Of a stretch of 60,469 nucleotides of DNA, positions 38,207 through 57,993 are shown piece after piece; within the stretch, counting starts at the first letter, position 1, and each line of letters starts with the position of its first letter. Below the pieces are notes generated by a model. That model searched no databases and had not been told where the DNA came from. It saw only the letters and a list, made by a program, of their open reading frames with translations. The DNA lies in contig CALUSL010000010.1 in the NCBI GenBank assembly GCA_944323425.1, positions 1 to 60,469 of the forward strand. Reading direction: 5' to 3'. This stretch comes from Candidatus Gastranaerophilales bacterium (GTDB lineage Bacteria; Cyanobacteriota; Vampirovibrionia; Gastranaerophilales; Gastranaerophilaceae). The position numbers and the translations under genes are program-made.

Positions 38207-38476
38207 ATGGAAAATGATATAGAAATATACACACTTTCAACATGCCCGTTTTGCGTAAAGGCGAAAGAGCTTCTCAGAGATAATTACCTGGATTATACAG
38301 AACATGAAATATCAAAAAATGAAGATGCAATGCGAAAAAAACTGGGAGAACTTTTTCATATCTCAGGCAATGTAACTGTACCGCAAATTGTTATAAATAA
38401 CAAACATATTGGCGGATATTCAGACTTGAAAGAATTGATAAAATCAGGAAAAATTACTCAGTATCTTAATTCTTAA
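38207..38476 (+). CDS. grxC: Glutaredoxin
   Basis: A small dithiol glutaredoxin: redox motif CPFC (13-16), TVPQIVINNKHIGGYSDL (the cis-Pro and GG motifs). 89 residues. It reduces disulfides, normally with glutathione, although anaerobes may use other thiols. GGAG lies 6 bases before the ATG. Its end overlaps the converging PilZ gene by 11 bases. Confidence 0.9.
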   Translation: MENDIEIYTLSTCPFCVKAKELLRDNYLDYTEHEISKNEDAMRKKLGELFHISGNVTVPQIVINNKHIGGYSDLKELIKSGKITQYLNS

Positions 38477-39068
38477 ATTTCATACACTGCAGAGTAATAA
38501 AATTCATTTCTTCCTGAGAAATATCAATAAACGTCACAGCTGTAATAAACTTGAATGAATTATCAATTCTTGCCGGATTTATATAGACAATTTCACCTTT
38601 TGTTCTGATTTCTTTTCCTGCGAGAAAAAGTGTAACATCAAGAGAAGAATATGTTTTAATCTGTTTACCGGCAATGAAACATAAACCTTTTGCGCATAGA
38701 TTTTTCGTTTTTGTTTCAATCCTGTCAACTTCTTCATTCTCGAATTTTACAGACAGTATAAAATCCGTTTCAATATTTGCCCGGAGAAACTCCCGGCGCT
38801 GGGAATATCGTATACTTACGGGAAATGATAAGCGGTAAAAATACTGTCCGTTGAGTTCACTGACTGAGACTATGCGGCTGACCGCGCTGTAGACACCATC
38901 TTCGGCATAAATATTGATATCTATATTTTGCTCAGGCAGCTCTATGTTTTCATCAGCAATGACCGTCACTATATCATCTTCAACATAGTAAATAGTACAG
39001 TAGTAACTCTTATCGTTAATAACAATCCCGAGTTTGTTTGAAGGTTTTAAAAAGCTGTAATTTTGCAC
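38466..39068 (-). CDS. PilZ-domain protein (likely c-di-GMP receptor)
   Basis: An N-terminal beta-rich domain (about 1-85, YcgR-N/PilZN-like) followed by a PilZ domain (about 88-195) with RREFLR (91-96; R92 and R96 form the RxxxR element). The second c-di-GMP motif, usually (D/N)xSxxG, reads NLCAKG (123-128): Ser is replaced by Cys, which may weaken or alter binding. It lies just after the three prepilin-like genes, on the same strand but beyond a hairpin, and may link c-di-GMP to surface fibres. Confidence 0.8.
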   Translation of the reverse strand: MQNYSFLKPSNKLGIVINDKSYYCTIYYVEDDIVTVIADENIELPEQNIDINIYAEDGVYSAVSRIVSVSELNGQYFYRLSFPVSIRYSQRREFLRANIETDFILSVKFENEEVDRIETKTKNLCAKGLCFIAGKQIKTYSSLDVTLFLAGKEIRTKGEIVYINPARIDNSFKFITAVTFIDISQEEMNFITLQCMKFKN

Positions 39069-39152: not shown

Positions 39153-40655
39153 TTACCAGGAAACAATGACAGCACCGGCAGCACCTCTGCCACCGTCACC
39201 ATAAGTTGTTCTTGATTTAATATAATCCTGCTGGTGATTTTTATATGATTTTACTTGATCTTGTGTAAGATTAATTGCGACGCCGCCGCCGCCGCCGCCG
39301 GAGCCAAAGCCCTGTCCGTCACCGCCGTTACCTGCTTTTGCAACATTATAGCCACCTTTACCGCCAACACCGCCAATAGAGTCTACCTCTGCGTAGGTCA
39401 TAGCATCAGCGCCATCAGAACCTGTTCCTAGTTTATCACCATATCCAATTTGTGTATATGAAGAACAGCCTCTGCCTCCATTTGCAGTAACGTAGTTAAA
39501 TACGGTAGTACCGCCATTACCTCCGGATTCACCCGGTTTTCCGATAATTAAAGTAGTTTCTTCTGTTTGTCTCGGGAATATAACTGTATTGACAGAGCCT
39601 GCAGCACCGCCGCAACCGCCTCTCATTTCGACCCCGACAGACGTAACATGTACATTGTTTCCAACACCGCCAGGTGTTATAGTGGTACCCGGAGGCATTT
39701 TTTTCACAAGAGATTGATAACCAGCTGTGTTATATTTTCTCAAAACAGGTATATATCGCTTGCAATGCAAATAGTTGCAGCCTTGAGGGTCTTTGTTGTT
39801 CGTATACGCACCTCCTGATGTTCCTTCTATTATAGCGACATCATTTGTTGCTCCTGTTTCATAGATTTTTTCCATAAAGTAAACGTCATCGCCGTTTTTT
39901 CCGGGCATTTTTGTATATGTTGAAAAGTTCATATTGATAAGTTCACTTGAGCCGTCACTGAACAAACCTGTCATAAGATGGTTTCCGCCCAGTCTTTCCT
40001 GGTCGCAATCTTTTATGGTCGTCGTTTGAGTATTATTAGGCACAGGTCTTATCCATATTTGGTCGCCTGCTTTGTATTCCTTTTTAAATCTAATGGAAGC
40101 GTTCGCCGTATCAGGAGGCGCACCGGGGTATGGACACGTATCTTTTACATATCCGTTTATAGTAAATTTCATACCCGGAGGGCTAAGTACACCTTCCTCC
40201 CCGACTCGTCCGGCAAGGGTAACTTCATACTCGCCGTCTGCAGGGACTTCAAGCGTTCCGTCATCTTCATCCGGTAAAGTATAATCATCATTGACATCAA
40301 TAAAGTTGAGCGTCGGAGGACCTCCGGGGGTATTTCCACCGGCACCGCCGCCGACTACCTGAACTAAGACATAAGGTACATTACTCGGCAATGAAGGAAA
40401 TTTACATCCTAATTTCCATTTTCCGGAATCAAAAGACGGCATTTTAGAATTTTGGTTTGCAGCGGTAGCAGAATATTCAACACCGTTTATCAACGTACAA
40501 ACCCATTTGCCATGAGGTCCTCTTTTAGGAAGAATCAAGTGTTTTTTCGTGATAACAGGCATTGTAGCCGCAAGAACCAATGCCGCAATTAATAATGCTA
40601 TCATTGCTTCAGCAAGAGAAAATGCTCGTATTAAATGTTTTTTTGAATATTTCAT
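39153..40655 (-). CDS. Prepilin-like leader + glycine-rich surface protein (third of cluster)
   Basis: An 11-residue positive leader ends in A11, followed by F12-SLAE with Glu at +5 and a hydrophobic helix (12-34): a type IV prepilin/pseudopilin leader with Ala instead of Gly at -1. Next comes HGKWVCTLINGVEYSA (about 48-63), shared with the two sisters. The rest is rich in Gly (VVGGGAGG, then GGNGGTT, GGKGG, GSGGGGGG) and ends GAVIVSW. 500 residues, far longer than a normal pilin. Start: AAGGA lies 7 bases before this ATG; the ATG at 40682 that overlaps the preceding stop has no ribosome site. Probably a cell-surface fibre or adhesin; function unknown. Confidence 0.65.
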   Translation of the reverse strand: MKYSKKHLIRAFSLAEAMIALLIAALVLAATMPVITKKHLILPKRGPHGKWVCTLINGVEYSATAANQNSKMPSFDSGKWKLGCKFPSLPSNVPYVLVQVVGGGAGGNTPGGPPTLNFIDVNDDYTLPDEDDGTLEVPADGEYEVTLAGRVGEEGVLSPPGMKFTINGYVKDTCPYPGAPPDTANASIRFKKEYKAGDQIWIRPVPNNTQTTTIKDCDQERLGGNHLMTGLFSDGSSELINMNFSTYTKMPGKNGDDVYFMEKIYETGATNDVAIIEGTSGGAYTNNKDPQGCNYLHCKRYIPVLRKYNTAGYQSLVKKMPPGTTITPGGVGNNVHVTSVGVEMRGGCGGAAGSVNTVIFPRQTEETTLIIGKPGESGGNGGTTVFNYVTANGGRGCSSYTQIGYGDKLGTGSDGADAMTYAEVDSIGGVGGKGGYNVAKAGNGGDGQGFGSGGGGGGVAINLTQDQVKSYKNHQQDYIKSRTTYGDGGRGAAGAVIVSW

Positions 40656-40681
40656 ATTAAAATCCTTATGTATTATATTCA

Positions 40682-42124
40682 TTACCAGGAAATAACGATA
40701 AGCCCATTCGTACCGTTACCGCCTTTACCTTGATACCATTTTTGTACACCGTTTTGTATAGGTTGTTTATTTTGCGATTCAGTTAAATAATAGTTATACG
40801 TTGGTTTGGAGGTATAATAAATCGCACCGCCGCCGCCGCCGGCACCAAAACCTCCGCCATTAGTTCCGTTAACTTCAGAAGCAGAAGCCCCCGGCTCACC
40901 AGCTCCTTTTGCTCCTATACCAGCAATTGAGAGCAAATTTTTCAAACCGCTTGCTTTGTCACCATCAGAACCACTGGTCGGCAAACTTCCGGTACAAACT
41001 CCCCCGTTTCTGCCACCAGGTGCCGGATAAGTACCAAACATTGTCGCAGTTGCTGATGTGGTTGGAGTACCGCCCAGACCAATTTTTATACTGGGAATAT
41101 TATCAGTAAATATCGGATATAATGTTGCATTAGTAGCTCCGGCTTCTCCGCCGCAGCCGCCGTTTGGCGTAAATTCTTTCGTTGACGGGTTCAAATCTTC
41201 AGAATATGAAATCTCAACTCGTCCATCATTCAATTCCTCTGTCTGTGCAGACGATGAAGTAGAGGGATCAAGAATTTTTAAATTTGAAAAACCGGTCGGA
41301 GCAATTATTGCTTTTCCGGGTTCACCCCTGTAAGGCTGATATCTGTCAACACAAGGAGGATTTAGCGGATTACATCTCAAATAACCTGCACCGCTTCCGG
41401 CTATTTGTGCAATAACTTGAGAATTAAGCTTGAGGATAGCTTCTCCCCCGTCTTTACCGATATAGTATTCACTTGATGTCGGAACAAACAAACCGTCAGT
41501 ACAAGCAAAGCTTGTCATTATATTGTCCAATTTTTCCGTCAAATTCAGAGTAAGCTTGTCCCCTCTTTTAAGCTGTATATCACCTTCAAAACGGTAAGTA
41601 TAACCGCCTTGCGGGCTTTCTGCAAAACAATCACCGTTTCTCCAAGGTGTTCTGTGAGTTTGTTCGCCTTTTTGACCGTACATTTTCACGTGATACCAGC
41701 CGTCATATTCAACGTTATATGAATCACCATCTGCTATAAGCAATCCGTCTGATATATCTTTTTCTTTTTCCCAAATAACAGAGGCGTCTTTTCCGGCACC
41801 ACCGCCGCCTATCATTGTTACAAGCAGCAAGTTGGCATATTTAGGAACTTTGAAATTTGTTTGACAACCTCCCTGTTTCCACTGCGGAGATGAGGGATCG
41901 GGAATTTCCGTATTACTTTTTGTCGAACTGAAATAATGCTCCTGACCGTTAATAACTGTGCAAGCATAAAGTCCTTGCGGTTTTATTGCAGCTTTAGGTT
42001 TCATTTTCCTTGGCAATATAATACCGGATCCCATTGCAAGAATCGCAACAAAAAGTAATATCATAATCATTTCAGCAAGTGAAAATGCATTATATCTTCT
42101 GGATTTAAAACTGTATATGCCCAT
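40682..42124 (-). CDS. Prepilin-like leader + glycine-rich surface protein (second of cluster)
   Basis: Same plan as its neighbours: leader up to A13, F14-SLAE (Glu at +5), hydrophobic segment (14-36), then GLYACTVINGQEHYFSS (about 51-67) and a long Gly/Ala/Ser-rich part with VTMIGGGGAGK, GGNGTNG and the ending GLIVISW. 480 residues, with a moderate number of Cys. AAAGG lies 7 bases before the ATG. The cleavage site and C-terminal SW agree with the other two. No prepilin peptidase or secretion ATPase is in the window, so export would depend on distant genes. Confidence 0.65.
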   Translation of the reverse strand: MGIYSFKSRRYNAFSLAEMIMILLFVAILAMGSGIILPRKMKPKAAIKPQGLYACTVINGQEHYFSSTKSNTEIPDPSSPQWKQGGCQTNFKVPKYANLLLVTMIGGGGAGKDASVIWEKEKDISDGLLIADGDSYNVEYDGWYHVKMYGQKGEQTHRTPWRNGDCFAESPQGGYTYRFEGDIQLKRGDKLTLNLTEKLDNIMTSFACTDGLFVPTSSEYYIGKDGGEAILKLNSQVIAQIAGSGAGYLRCNPLNPPCVDRYQPYRGEPGKAIIAPTGFSNLKILDPSTSSSAQTEELNDGRVEISYSEDLNPSTKEFTPNGGCGGEAGATNATLYPIFTDNIPSIKIGLGGTPTTSATATMFGTYPAPGGRNGGVCTGSLPTSGSDGDKASGLKNLLSIAGIGAKGAGEPGASASEVNGTNGGGFGAGGGGGAIYYTSKPTYNYYLTESQNKQPIQNGVQKWYQGKGGNGTNGLIVISW

Positions 42125-42164
42125 TTCTTTACCTTTTATTTTTCCAAATCATAAAATTATTTAG

Positions 42165-42198
42165 AAGTATAAGCCACATAATTCTGCGGCTTATACTT
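42165..42198. other. Hairpin between the first two prepilin-like genes
   Basis: Perfect 11-base arms (42165-42175 and 42188-42198) with a 12-base loop in the 87-base gap. The T run is on the plus strand, where no gene ends; on the minus (transcribed) strand the hairpin is followed by a weak AT-rich run, so it could be a partial terminator or an RNA-processing site that lowers expression of downstream genes. Confidence 0.5.
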
Positions 42199-42211
42199 TT
42201 TTTATTTGTTA

Positions 42212-44107
42212 TTACCAGCTCACGACAATCATACCGGTGCTGCCGCTTGATTTGCTGTTATCATAAGACCATCTGCCATTTGGTTCTTTATCATCTTCTC
42301 GCAGCTTATCATAATCTCTTAACGGCAAGCCATATTTATCGAGGGTAACACCCGGTTCACCATGAAATTTAAATGTACCGGCAATACCACCGTTTGCTAC
42401 ACCATTTGTACCGACTGTATTTAATCTTTTATCTGTATTTTTTACGCTTGTGCTGTTTACATCGGTTATATTTTCAGAGATACATCCGACCTCTGCACCG
42501 GCACCGCCCGATGCTTGTATCCAGCCAAAATATGTATCACCGCCGTTTTTGCTTACGTCACCGCCTTTTCCGACTGCAAATTTAAAGTTTCTAGTACCTG
42601 TAGCAGGGAACATTGCGGTTTTGACTTCACCGGCAATACCGTGACAGCCGACATGATATACAAACTTATCAAGACTTACATACAGACCTTCTTCTTTTGG
42701 AAGTGTGAACACAGGTCCAAAATGTTCCGTGTCGTGAATATCTGCATAGCCGTCCGTACCATTCTGGGCGCAGTGAGGAGAGCTGCCTGCAGAGTTCGGG
42801 AAAGAAGCTCTGTGTCCGCAGTTATAGCAGCATGAACCTGCGCCGGAGGAATTAAGCTTGCCTGCTTTACCGCCATGCATTGTTGCCAGCTTTATATCGC
42901 TTTCAACAGGTGTCCAACCTTGCCAGTCTACTTTTCTGTAAATATATTCATAGCTTTCCGCATCGGTCGAATCAGTGATTGCATAACCATTAACCGTACC
43001 GGCAGAATATTCTTTATAAGTGCCTAATGCGTTTTTAAATATTTTTTCACCTTCTTGCATAGTAAGCGTTCCGTGAGCGCCTCCGGACGCAGCACCATCA
43101 GCCGCATTCGGGAGAGTTCCGGTATTGCTCATACACCAGGCATCAGATAAAGACGTATAGTCGTATACACTGGCGCCTTCCCAATGGCTGCAGTCATATT
43201 CTTCACCGCCGCAAGTATCGCACTTATACGAGCAGTCGCTCGCCGCAGCACCTGTCAAGACACCTGAAGTCAAAGGTGTCCATCTTGGCCATCCGGCAGA
43301 ACCTGTGCTGCCGCCGCCACCTGAGCTGCCGCCACCACCTGAGCTGCTGCCTGAGCTTGAGCTTGAGCTTGAACTGGAGCTAGAGCTTGAACTGGAGCTA
43401 GAGCTTGAACTGCTCGACGGAGTACAGGAATTACCTTCGCTGTCCTTATAATCACAATTGCAGCTATATGTAGGTTTGTTACATGTTTTATCAACCCAAG
43501 TATGCTGAGCATCCCAATAATAGTGATCTTGCGGAGAGTGACATGGTCCTACTACCGGAGAAAATGTATTTTTATTATAACTTGAATATCCTTGATAATA
43601 AGTCTCATCATAGAAAAAGCCCTGGTTTCCGTTATGATAAGATGTATCATAAAGGCTGTTGCCGCCAGACCAGTCAGGAGAATTGGCGACTTCTGTGCTG
43701 CCCATATAAATATCATATTCCCCGTTTATCGGAACAGGTTCACCAAATTTTATATGCTCTATATAAGGAACCCATGGTTCTGCAAACGCAACGCTGGCTC
43801 CGCCGCCGCCGCCATAGACTTCAACATACATATATTTTACAGTATTACCTATGCCTTTAAAGACACAGCCTTTCGACCAATCTTTGTCTTCGGGCAAAGG
43901 TGAATCAATATCTTTCGCCATAGCGGAATGCAGCTCACCGTTTATATATTTACAAGCCCATTTTCCATGTTCAACATTGTTATCAATTGTTCTGTGTTTT
44001 TTAGTGAACACAGGAATCGACGCAGCTACAAGCAAGGCAACAACCAACATTGTTACCAATGCCTCTGCCATTGAGAATGCTCTTTTTTTCATCATTTTCT
44101 TTTTCAT
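42212..44107 (-). CDS. Prepilin-like leader + Cys/Ser/Gly-rich surface protein (first of cluster)
   Basis: The largest of three (631 residues). Basic leader MKKKMMKKRA ends at A10; F11-SMAE gives Glu at +5, followed by a hydrophobic helix (11-35) and HGKWACKYINGELHS (about 48-62). Then a Cys-bearing region, a tract of about 25 Ser (near residues 230-255) leading into GGGGSSGGGG, a second Cys-rich region (CSYKCDTCGGEEYDC) and the ending TGMIVVSW. The Ser tract is coded by an 18-base tandem repeat. A good promoter lies upstream at 44184-44212. The Cys pairs may be disulfides outside the cell. Function unknown; a fibre tip or adhesin is only inferred. Confidence 0.62.
   Translation of the reverse strand: MKKKMMKKRAFSMAEALVTMLVVALLVAASIPVFTKKHRTIDNNVEHGKWACKYINGELHSAMAKDIDSPLPEDKDWSKGCVFKGIGNTVKYMYVEVYGGGGGASVAFAEPWVPYIEHIKFGEPVPINGEYDIYMGSTEVANSPDWSGGNSLYDTSYHNGNQGFFYDETYYQGYSSYNKNTFSPVVGPCHSPQDHYYWDAQHTWVDKTCNKPTYSCNCDYKDSEGNSCTPSSSSSSSSSSSSSSSSSSSSSSGSSSGGGGSSGGGGSTGSAGWPRWTPLTSGVLTGAAASDCSYKCDTCGGEEYDCSHWEGASVYDYTSLSDAWCMSNTGTLPNAADGAASGGAHGTLTMQEGEKIFKNALGTYKEYSAGTVNGYAITDSTDAESYEYIYRKVDWQGWTPVESDIKLATMHGGKAGKLNSSGAGSCCYNCGHRASFPNSAGSSPHCAQNGTDGYADIHDTEHFGPVFTLPKEEGLYVSLDKFVYHVGCHGIAGEVKTAMFPATGTRNFKFAVGKGGDVSKNGGDTYFGWIQASGGAGAEVGCISENITDVNSTSVKNTDKRLNTVGTNGVANGGIAGTFKFHGEPGVTLDKYGLPLRDYDKLREDDKEPNGRWSYDNSKSSGSTGMIVVSW
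43353..43412. repeat. In-frame tandem hexamer/18-base repeat coding for serines
   Basis: On the plus strand GAGCTT occurs twice, followed by about two and two-thirds copies of an 18-base unit GAGCTT-GAACTG-GAGCTA. Read on the minus strand every codon is Ser. Copy-number changes would keep the frame and alter linker length. Confidence 0.85.
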
Positions 44108-57072: not shown

Positions 57073-57993
57073 ATGAAAAAAAAGATATTTTCGTTAACAC
57101 AAATTTTGACTACAGCATTTATGTCAGTGATTATACTTTGCGTATCTCAAGAAATTCTGGCAAATGGTATAACATCAATAACAGACACCTCCGAAACATC
57201 ATATGGAAATAAGCTGAATTTTTATAATTCCAACGCAAAAAATGATATTGCAAAACTAAAAAAAGCATACCTGATAATCACAGACAATTTTCAAAATATG
57301 ATGAAAGAGGAAAAAAAAGATGATTTGGGAGAAACCTCATTTTTCAAAAATATGCCGGCAGAAAGAAGCCTTGAGGCAGAAACACAGGTATACTTGGACG
57401 AAGCACTGTCAGGCTTGAATATTAGAAAAACCTGCTACAACTATCTTGATGACTGTAAAAAGATAAAATATGGCGGCTTAAAATATCCATCCTGGATAAA
57501 AACAGCATTCCCTTCTCACTATAGAATTTATACAAATGACGGTATGCTTTATTATTTTGATATATACAAAAATGGAATCGCGCAAGAGGCACCGGCAGAA
57601 GACATAATAAAAGCCGGCGGAAAAATGACAAAAATTTACGGTCTTGTTCAAATTGATATTAATGGAAACGAAAAACCTAATGTCTGGGGCAAAGATCTTT
57701 TCGGATATTACATTGCACAGGACGGACGTCTTTACCCGTACTACGGCAAAGATAGAGCCATATACAATGCCGGTACAAATTGGAAAAATAACAATTTATA
57801 CTGGAAAAATAGAAAAATACTTTGCGGAGGTAAAGATATAAACAAAACACTATTTGTCTCCGGTGAAGGGTGTACAGCCAGAATTATGGAAAATAACTGG
57901 AAATATGATTACACAGTAAAGAATTTTTCTGAGTTTTTAAGCATTGTAGGACAAGCAACAATTCAAAAGACATACGCGCTTGTAAGATCCTGA
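57073..57993 (+). CDS. Divergent pseudopilin-like protein whose end lies in a dispersed repeat
   Basis: Basic start MKKK, then IFSLTQILTTAFMSVIILCV, a prepilin-like helix in which Gln stands where pseudopilins have Glu at +5, so processing may be lost. KLKKAYLIITDNFQNM and the C-terminal VQIDINGNEKPNVWGKDLFGYYI and GCTARIMENNWKYDY agree with my recall of the pseudopilin-like proteins common in Gastranaerophilales. The last codons and the TGA stop (57991-57993) fall inside the repeat that begins at 57982, so the natural C-terminus may have been replaced. No strong ribosome site is seen. An ordinary exported protein is the alternative. Confidence 0.5.
   Translation: MKKKIFSLTQILTTAFMSVIILCVSQEILANGITSITDTSETSYGNKLNFYNSNAKNDIAKLKKAYLIITDNFQNMMKEEKKDDLGETSFFKNMPAERSLEAETQVYLDEALSGLNIRKTCYNYLDDCKKIKYGGLKYPSWIKTAFPSHYRIYTNDGMLYYFDIYKNGIAQEAPAEDIIKAGGKMTKIYGLVQIDINGNEKPNVWGKDLFGYYIAQDGRLYPYYGKDRAIYNAGTNWKNNNLYWKNRKILCGGKDINKTLFVSGEGCTARIMENNWKYDYTVKNFSEFLSIVGQATIQKTYALVRS

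Follow-up and report, generated by a model that had tools for sequence, protein, structure and literature searches.

What are the three giant glycine-containing proteins encoded side by side in a Candidatus Gastranaerophilales genome, each opening with the leader of a prepilin, and what might such a trio do? Most of what is known of Gastranaerophilales, gut bacteria related to the cyanobacteria, comes from metagenomes. We analysed a stretch of 60,469 nt (CALUSL010000010.1, positions 1 to 60,469; hereafter the window, on whose scale all positions are given unless another contig is named), for which an earlier note had proposed a surface fibre or adhesin with a pilin-type leader, exported by a machine like that of the T2SS or the type IV pilus. 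Sequence and models together leave an adhesive fibre exported in the type IV pilus manner as the best-supported reading: we consider the three proteins, with a probability of roughly 0.6, to be modular type IV pilins that form a tip adhesin with phage-fibre-like heads, maybe as a heterotrimer. The genes, named A, B and C in their order of transcription, and the features next to them are:

42212-44107, minus strand: gene A, giant pilin-like protein of 631 aa (open reading frame), ending VVSW
42165-42198, minus strand: 14-bp hairpin in the 87-nt gap between A and B (z -6.8), no T-run after it
40682-42124, minus strand: gene B, giant pilin-like protein of 480 aa (open reading frame), ending VISW
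39153-40655, minus strand: gene C, giant pilin-like protein of 500 aa (a longer open reading frame reaches 40682), ending IVSW
38466-39068, minus strand: PilZ-domain protein, directly downstream of gene C and adjoining the triad in this genus

The open reading frames span 631, 480 and 509 codons, all on the minus strand; for gene C the internal ATG at 40655 is the likelier start, since AAGGA lies shortly upstream of it, and C then has 500 residues rather than 509. All three leaders (the dot marking the putative cleavage point), MKKKMMKKRA·FSMAE in A, MGIYSFKSRRYNA·FSLAE in B and MKYSKKHLIRA·FSLAE in C, follow the plan A·FS(L/M)AE and then a hydrophobic helix, with Pro +22 in A and C only. The elements first noticed in these adjacent genes, namely Ala -1 and Glu +5 in the leader, a glycine-containing body and a C-terminal SW, were all confirmed, and a cysteine motif, (K/L)(W/Y)xCx3NG, is likewise common to the three, at mature residue 39 instead of about 35. 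The first gene is indeed both the largest and the Cys-rich one, with 18 cysteines against 8 each in B and C, most of them in an inserted region that also carries a poly-Ser linker. Pairwise BLASTP (B/C 1e-15; A/B 2e-10; A/C 8e-15) gives matches that fall separately in the N-terminal and C-terminal parts, which shows A, B and C to be true paralogues, related by homology rather than chance. An artefact of low complexity could be ruled out, the genes being intact and alignable in other species and the paralogues aligning at both ends. The hairpin between A and B is perhaps a site of RNA processing or attenuation.

Glu +5 is the residue used in pilin filament assembly, and each of the three proteins has a prepilin leader ending in Ala followed by a hydrophobic helix that carries it. 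The Pfam N_methyl model (cut-off 21.2 bits) scored A at 15.0 and C at 15.6 bits in the protein scan, with no match for B, and gene C at 21.8 bits, above the cut-off, in the genome scan. A search of solved structures by sequence returned pilin helices as the best matches when the profile was built from 57 proteins, and nothing useful with a gene C profile. AlphaFold places the N-terminal helix at residues 14-31 in C and 16-32 in B, with pLDDT below 50 in the adjoining linker. The earlier note had named two outcomes that would count against it, a named family with another function covering the whole protein and the lack of a pilin-like N-terminal helix; family searches found no named family spanning the whole of A, B or C, and an N-terminal helix is present in the models with modest confidence. 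The scan of related genomes that it had suggested shows the same plan kept, with Glu +5, several glycines and the final Trp invariant across 57 aligned relatives.

The models of B and C show no canonical α1-C/β-sheet module, unlike other modular pilins (the linker, where confidence is low, being the part concerned), and a helix of only about 18 residues joins the head. This invites the reading that A, B and C are membrane-anchored surface adhesins whose helix serves solely as anchor or export signal and never enters a filament; we regard this as unlikely, because Glu +5 would then hardly be invariant in all 57 relatives, and because sister genera carry the genes alongside two ordinary pilin genes. 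At most sister loci these two smaller pilins adjoin the triad; D has about 200 aa and E about 270-340 aa, and both were identified from their leaders and positions rather than from a tree. In the window genome their homologues (L080 and L077) lie away from the triad. E stands by itself there, at a second site where G169 and L096 have A-B-C together with E.

Two further proteins have pilin-like starts. One, of 216 aa (L074:7213-7863, equivalent to G000:C7:12212-12862), has the leader KKA·FSIAE, a tail-collar-like motif GQEKCPDGWMLSNGS recognized by eye and a weak match to a 5-fold beta-flower, and may be a further pilin that carries a module of phage-tail type. The other, of 306 aa (window 57073-57993), begins KKKI·FSLTQ like a prepilin leader, with Gln for Glu at +5; it has a DINGNEKPNVWGKDLFGYYI stretch in its body that resembles the small pilins of the window genome, gave no family match and is possibly a tip-type pilin.

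Which machine might assemble such proteins? A census of the window genome by family searches found one operon encoding a weakly GspC-like protein, the only secretin in the genome, a PilB-like protein and a GspF/PilC-like protein, together with two PilT family proteins above cut-off and a prepilin peptidase gene. The operon's ATPase scores best against PilB and its membrane protein best against GspF; none of these machine genes is adjacent to the triad. With one secretin operon, its PilB/PilC-like proteins and two PilT proteins, the set resembles that of a type IV pilus more than a classical T2SS, and of the two kinds of machine named earlier the type IV pilus is favoured. A termite-gut member of the group has been reported to have type IV pilus genes (PMC5877343). 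Across the order, T2SSE matches occur in all 192 genomes, four of which have only a single, weak one; the giants are found in none of these 4 and in 77 of the other 188, so that the co-inheritance with pilus genes that the earlier note had suggested checking is suggestive in direction and not significant (p 0.15). The pilus may be under c-di-GMP control: a PilZ-domain protein stands beside the triad, and the PilB-like ATPase carries a c-di-GMP domain of MshE type (NF053729, above cut-off; L073:7141-9171).

The same inventory bears on a second alternative, that A, B and C are T2SS pseudopilins in a short pilus that works as a piston, with heads that hold or select secreted cargo. The GspC-like start of the operon, the preference of its membrane protein for GspF and a weak match of D to GspI all point that way. 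GspH-I-J-K, in T2SS and type IV pili, are similar in being a small set of minor pilins that is thought to occupy the tip. Two retraction ATPases of the PilT family are foreign to a classical T2SS, however, the operon's own ATPase resembles PilB, and A, B and C are far larger than any known pseudopilin except GspK. GspK itself has an alpha-domain and lacks Glu5 (PMC9934059), whereas A, B and C all have Glu +5 and so do not share the mark of a GspK-type tip pseudopilin; no tail-fibre head has been described for GspH-I-J-K. We judge this reading improbable, and return to the modular tip pilin with the part of the proteins that sets them apart, the head.

AlphaFold models of B and C, built on 7-8 sequences (pLDDT 75.0 and 74.6, pTM 0.50 and 0.60, respectively), show the N-terminal helix, the low-confidence linker and then a mainly beta body. 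By VIA-align the top-ranked match of both is the tail fibre gp24 of cyanophage Pam3 (7YPX; Z 13.0, rmsd 3.1 over 163 aligned residues for C; Z 13.4, rmsd 2.6 over 159 for B), which spans residues 43-500 of C and 48-480 of B, that is, the body to its last residue. The Bxb1 tail tip ranks second (Z 8.9 for C and 11.3 for B), and the glycine-rich domains of ALK/LTK match the middle of the proteins (about 120-340; Z 6.2-8.0 for C and 7.2-9.7 for B); the next rows start at Z 3.8 (C) and 4.5 (B), and matches below Z 5 (C1q, TNF, VP8*) we take as the common TNF-like jelly roll. Foldseek E-values by themselves are weak for these models; in BFVD most of the matches are to proteins of phage tails or to glycine-rich proteins. 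We therefore predict, from the models, a TNF-like and glycine-rich head of tail-fibre type in B and C, with a second ALK/TNF-like domain inserted right after the first Gly loop. Alignment and model ranges make GGGAGG (102-107) and GGGGGG (453-458) of protein C the likely equivalents of the Gly motifs in the first and last loops of gp24. The model divides gene C as follows:

40512-40622, minus strand: residues 12-48, pilin helix at the mature N-terminus, with the linker; highest conservation
40302-40511, minus strand: residues 49-118, first outer TNF-like strands with the C-C motif, ending at the Gly loop GGGAGG
39624-40301, minus strand: residues 119-344, the ALK/TNF-like insert; lowest conservation
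39156-39623, minus strand: residues 345-500, glycine-rich (27% Gly) with the last TNF-like strand, ending IVSW

Family models agree with this fold in relatives of the three proteins. A, B and C themselves stay below the cut-off of Pfam Gly_rich_2 (PF21722, 24.3 bits), which three relatives (L045, L047 and L050) exceed; at E<=0.01 the model matches 22 of the 57 relatives, the lowest E-value being 3.7e-17. L045 and L047 also match PHROG 863 (tail), at 4.3e-16 and 1.2e-9. Since the best Gly_rich_2 stretch of L045 (114-308) lies within the outer head and its PHROG 863 match covers the C-terminal part, one glycine-rich domain appears to be nested inside another. The tail-fibre chaperone family Caudo_TAP gave no match above its cut-off. 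The pointer of the earlier note to glycine-rich domains of phage tail fibres is thus borne out, by fold comparison and by the Pfam and PHROG matches of the relatives. An origin of the triad as prophage genes is not supported, the neighbours in the window, apart from the PilZ protein, being housekeeping genes; no viral contigs encoding relatives of the gene C alignment were found, and tblastn of C and two relatives against phage records gave no match.

The insert is the least conserved region in all three proteins. Mean pairwise identity within the close group, for helix, first TNF-like part, insert and glycine-rich end in turn, is 0.76, 0.81, 0.38 and 0.54 in A, 0.65, 0.63, 0.47 and 0.62 in B, and 0.83, 0.65, 0.36 and 0.55 in C, with region borders in A and B set by eye on the alignments. 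Such low conservation would be expected of a ligand-binding tip, and also of relaxed constraint. That the three are minor pilins of a competence pilus with DNA-binding heads, as the weak resemblance of their N-termini to ComGC and ComGE might hint, is very unlikely, for those matches come mainly from the shared helix, the likeness of the head is to phage fibres that bind receptors and to ligand-binding domains of ALK/TNF type, and a poorly conserved insert suits a variable ligand better than DNA.

How widespread are proteins of this plan, and why three? Among named organisms the nearest relatives come from metagenome-assembled genomes of Candidatus Gastranaerophilales. Of 192 genomes from the order, a first profile matched 126, in many of them by the helix only; a more selective profile of the N-terminal part, built on 57 proteins, matched 77 of 192 at 1e-10, one (G016) outside the window's family, and in a sample of 292 genomes from the phylum all 97 positives at 1e-8 belong to that family. 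A contig scan of genomes with gene C alone as query gave no match. Counts read by hand from the N-terminal profile results give exactly three copies in 26 of the 29 genomes with matches in four sister genera (g4, g5, g10 and g11), while in a fifth (g14) the copies are mostly scattered, so that the rule of three is not universal.

In ten three-copy sister genomes the first, second and third genes fall into a clade each, to which every genome contributes one member, and the three positions likewise form three clades in the window's genus together with G154. Between the two sets, a clade of A with A was rejected (p 0.009), C with C was borderline (0.052) and B with B was not rejected (0.34); the window triad as a single clade was not rejected either. 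The triads of the window's genus and of the sister genera may hence not be one-to-one orthologues, and the rejection of the A clade, with a single clade allowed for the window triad, suggests that the set of three genes may have more than one origin; independent triplication is favoured on these trees, and not settled. One genome (G169; L037 and L038) has the A-B-C set three times: one copy lies at the same site as in the window, and at a second site two tandem copies flank E. A contig filed as uncultured Lachnospiraceae bacterium (L100) carries the A-B-C set of the window's genus, its C being 48% identical, and is probably mis-binned.

Computation supports the leader, the fold predicted for B and C, the pattern of three genes and a genome that contains the machine genes; these could be joined as follows. 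The short pilin N-terminus, with its leader, helix and Glu +5, would insert each protein in the inner membrane, where prepilin peptidase would cleave after Ala -1 and Glu +5 would dock A, B and C into the base of a pilus of PilB/PilC/PilT type. Bulky subunits fit the tip best, and we would place these there, their heads being too large for the shaft. Since their counterpart in the phage tail fibre is homotrimeric, and since there are three paralogous genes that have diverged, the heads of A, B and C might form one heterotrimer, perhaps with the small pilins D and E. The inserted TNF/ALK-like domain would sit distally, where Pam3 is proposed to bind its host; the heads would adhere, to a ligand that we guess to be glycans or other cells of the gut, and PilT would then retract the pilus. 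In its fullest form, a retractile type IV pilus tipped by a heterotrimer of three pilin/tail-fibre chimeras, with receptor-binding loops enlarged to domains and a three-gene set assembled apparently more than once in one family, the proposal is a possibility that we hold only tentatively.

Modular pilins have been described as a class of many different architectures (PMC8179133), in which a domain not specific to pili lies C-terminal to the pilin N-terminus, as the gp24 fold match of the models indicates here. PilB and PilC of Streptococcus sanguinis are modular pilins and proposed tip adhesins (PMC8179133, PMC9934059), similar in the bulky C-terminal domain and in belonging to a small set of minor pilins; unlike them, the present proteins have a TNF-like/glycine-rich head, a short helix, no visible pilin beta module and three paralogues. 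Pam3 gp24 is a trimer with a helical shaft and TNF-like and glycine-rich receptor-binding domains (PDB 7YPX, PMC9608196); it shares with the predicted heads the TNF-like domain with a glycine-rich loop bundle (Z 13), the N-terminal helix (in gp24, the shaft) and Gly-rich motifs in the first and last loops, but it is a homotrimeric phage protein, attached with a chaperone to a baseplate, and has neither a prepilin leader nor a second inserted domain. The glycine-rich (TG) domain of ALK/LTK resembles the insert by predicted fold only (Z 6.2-9.7) and belongs to the ectodomain of an animal receptor kinase. The mosaic adhesive trimer (MAT) fibres of Bdellovibrio (PMC10769870) are likewise phage-like surface fibres, some with TNF-like ends and one sugar-bound; they have trimeric beta-prism stalks and about 1,000 aa, and in the part of that account available to us no pilin leader is described.

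The earlier note knew of no described system of this exact plan. Modular pilins as such are already known; searches of the open-licence PMC literature found neither a pilin described as having a TNF-like/glycine-rich head nor such a three-gene set, itself weak evidence of absence. The same literature held nothing on how Gastranaerophilales attach to their surroundings. If the reading of A, B and C as modular tip pilins is true, a pilus tipped by phage-like fibres would be a concrete, testable attachment device for these bacteria; it would mean that receptor-binding folds of phage type occur on pili too, and would suggest a reason why such pilins come in threes.
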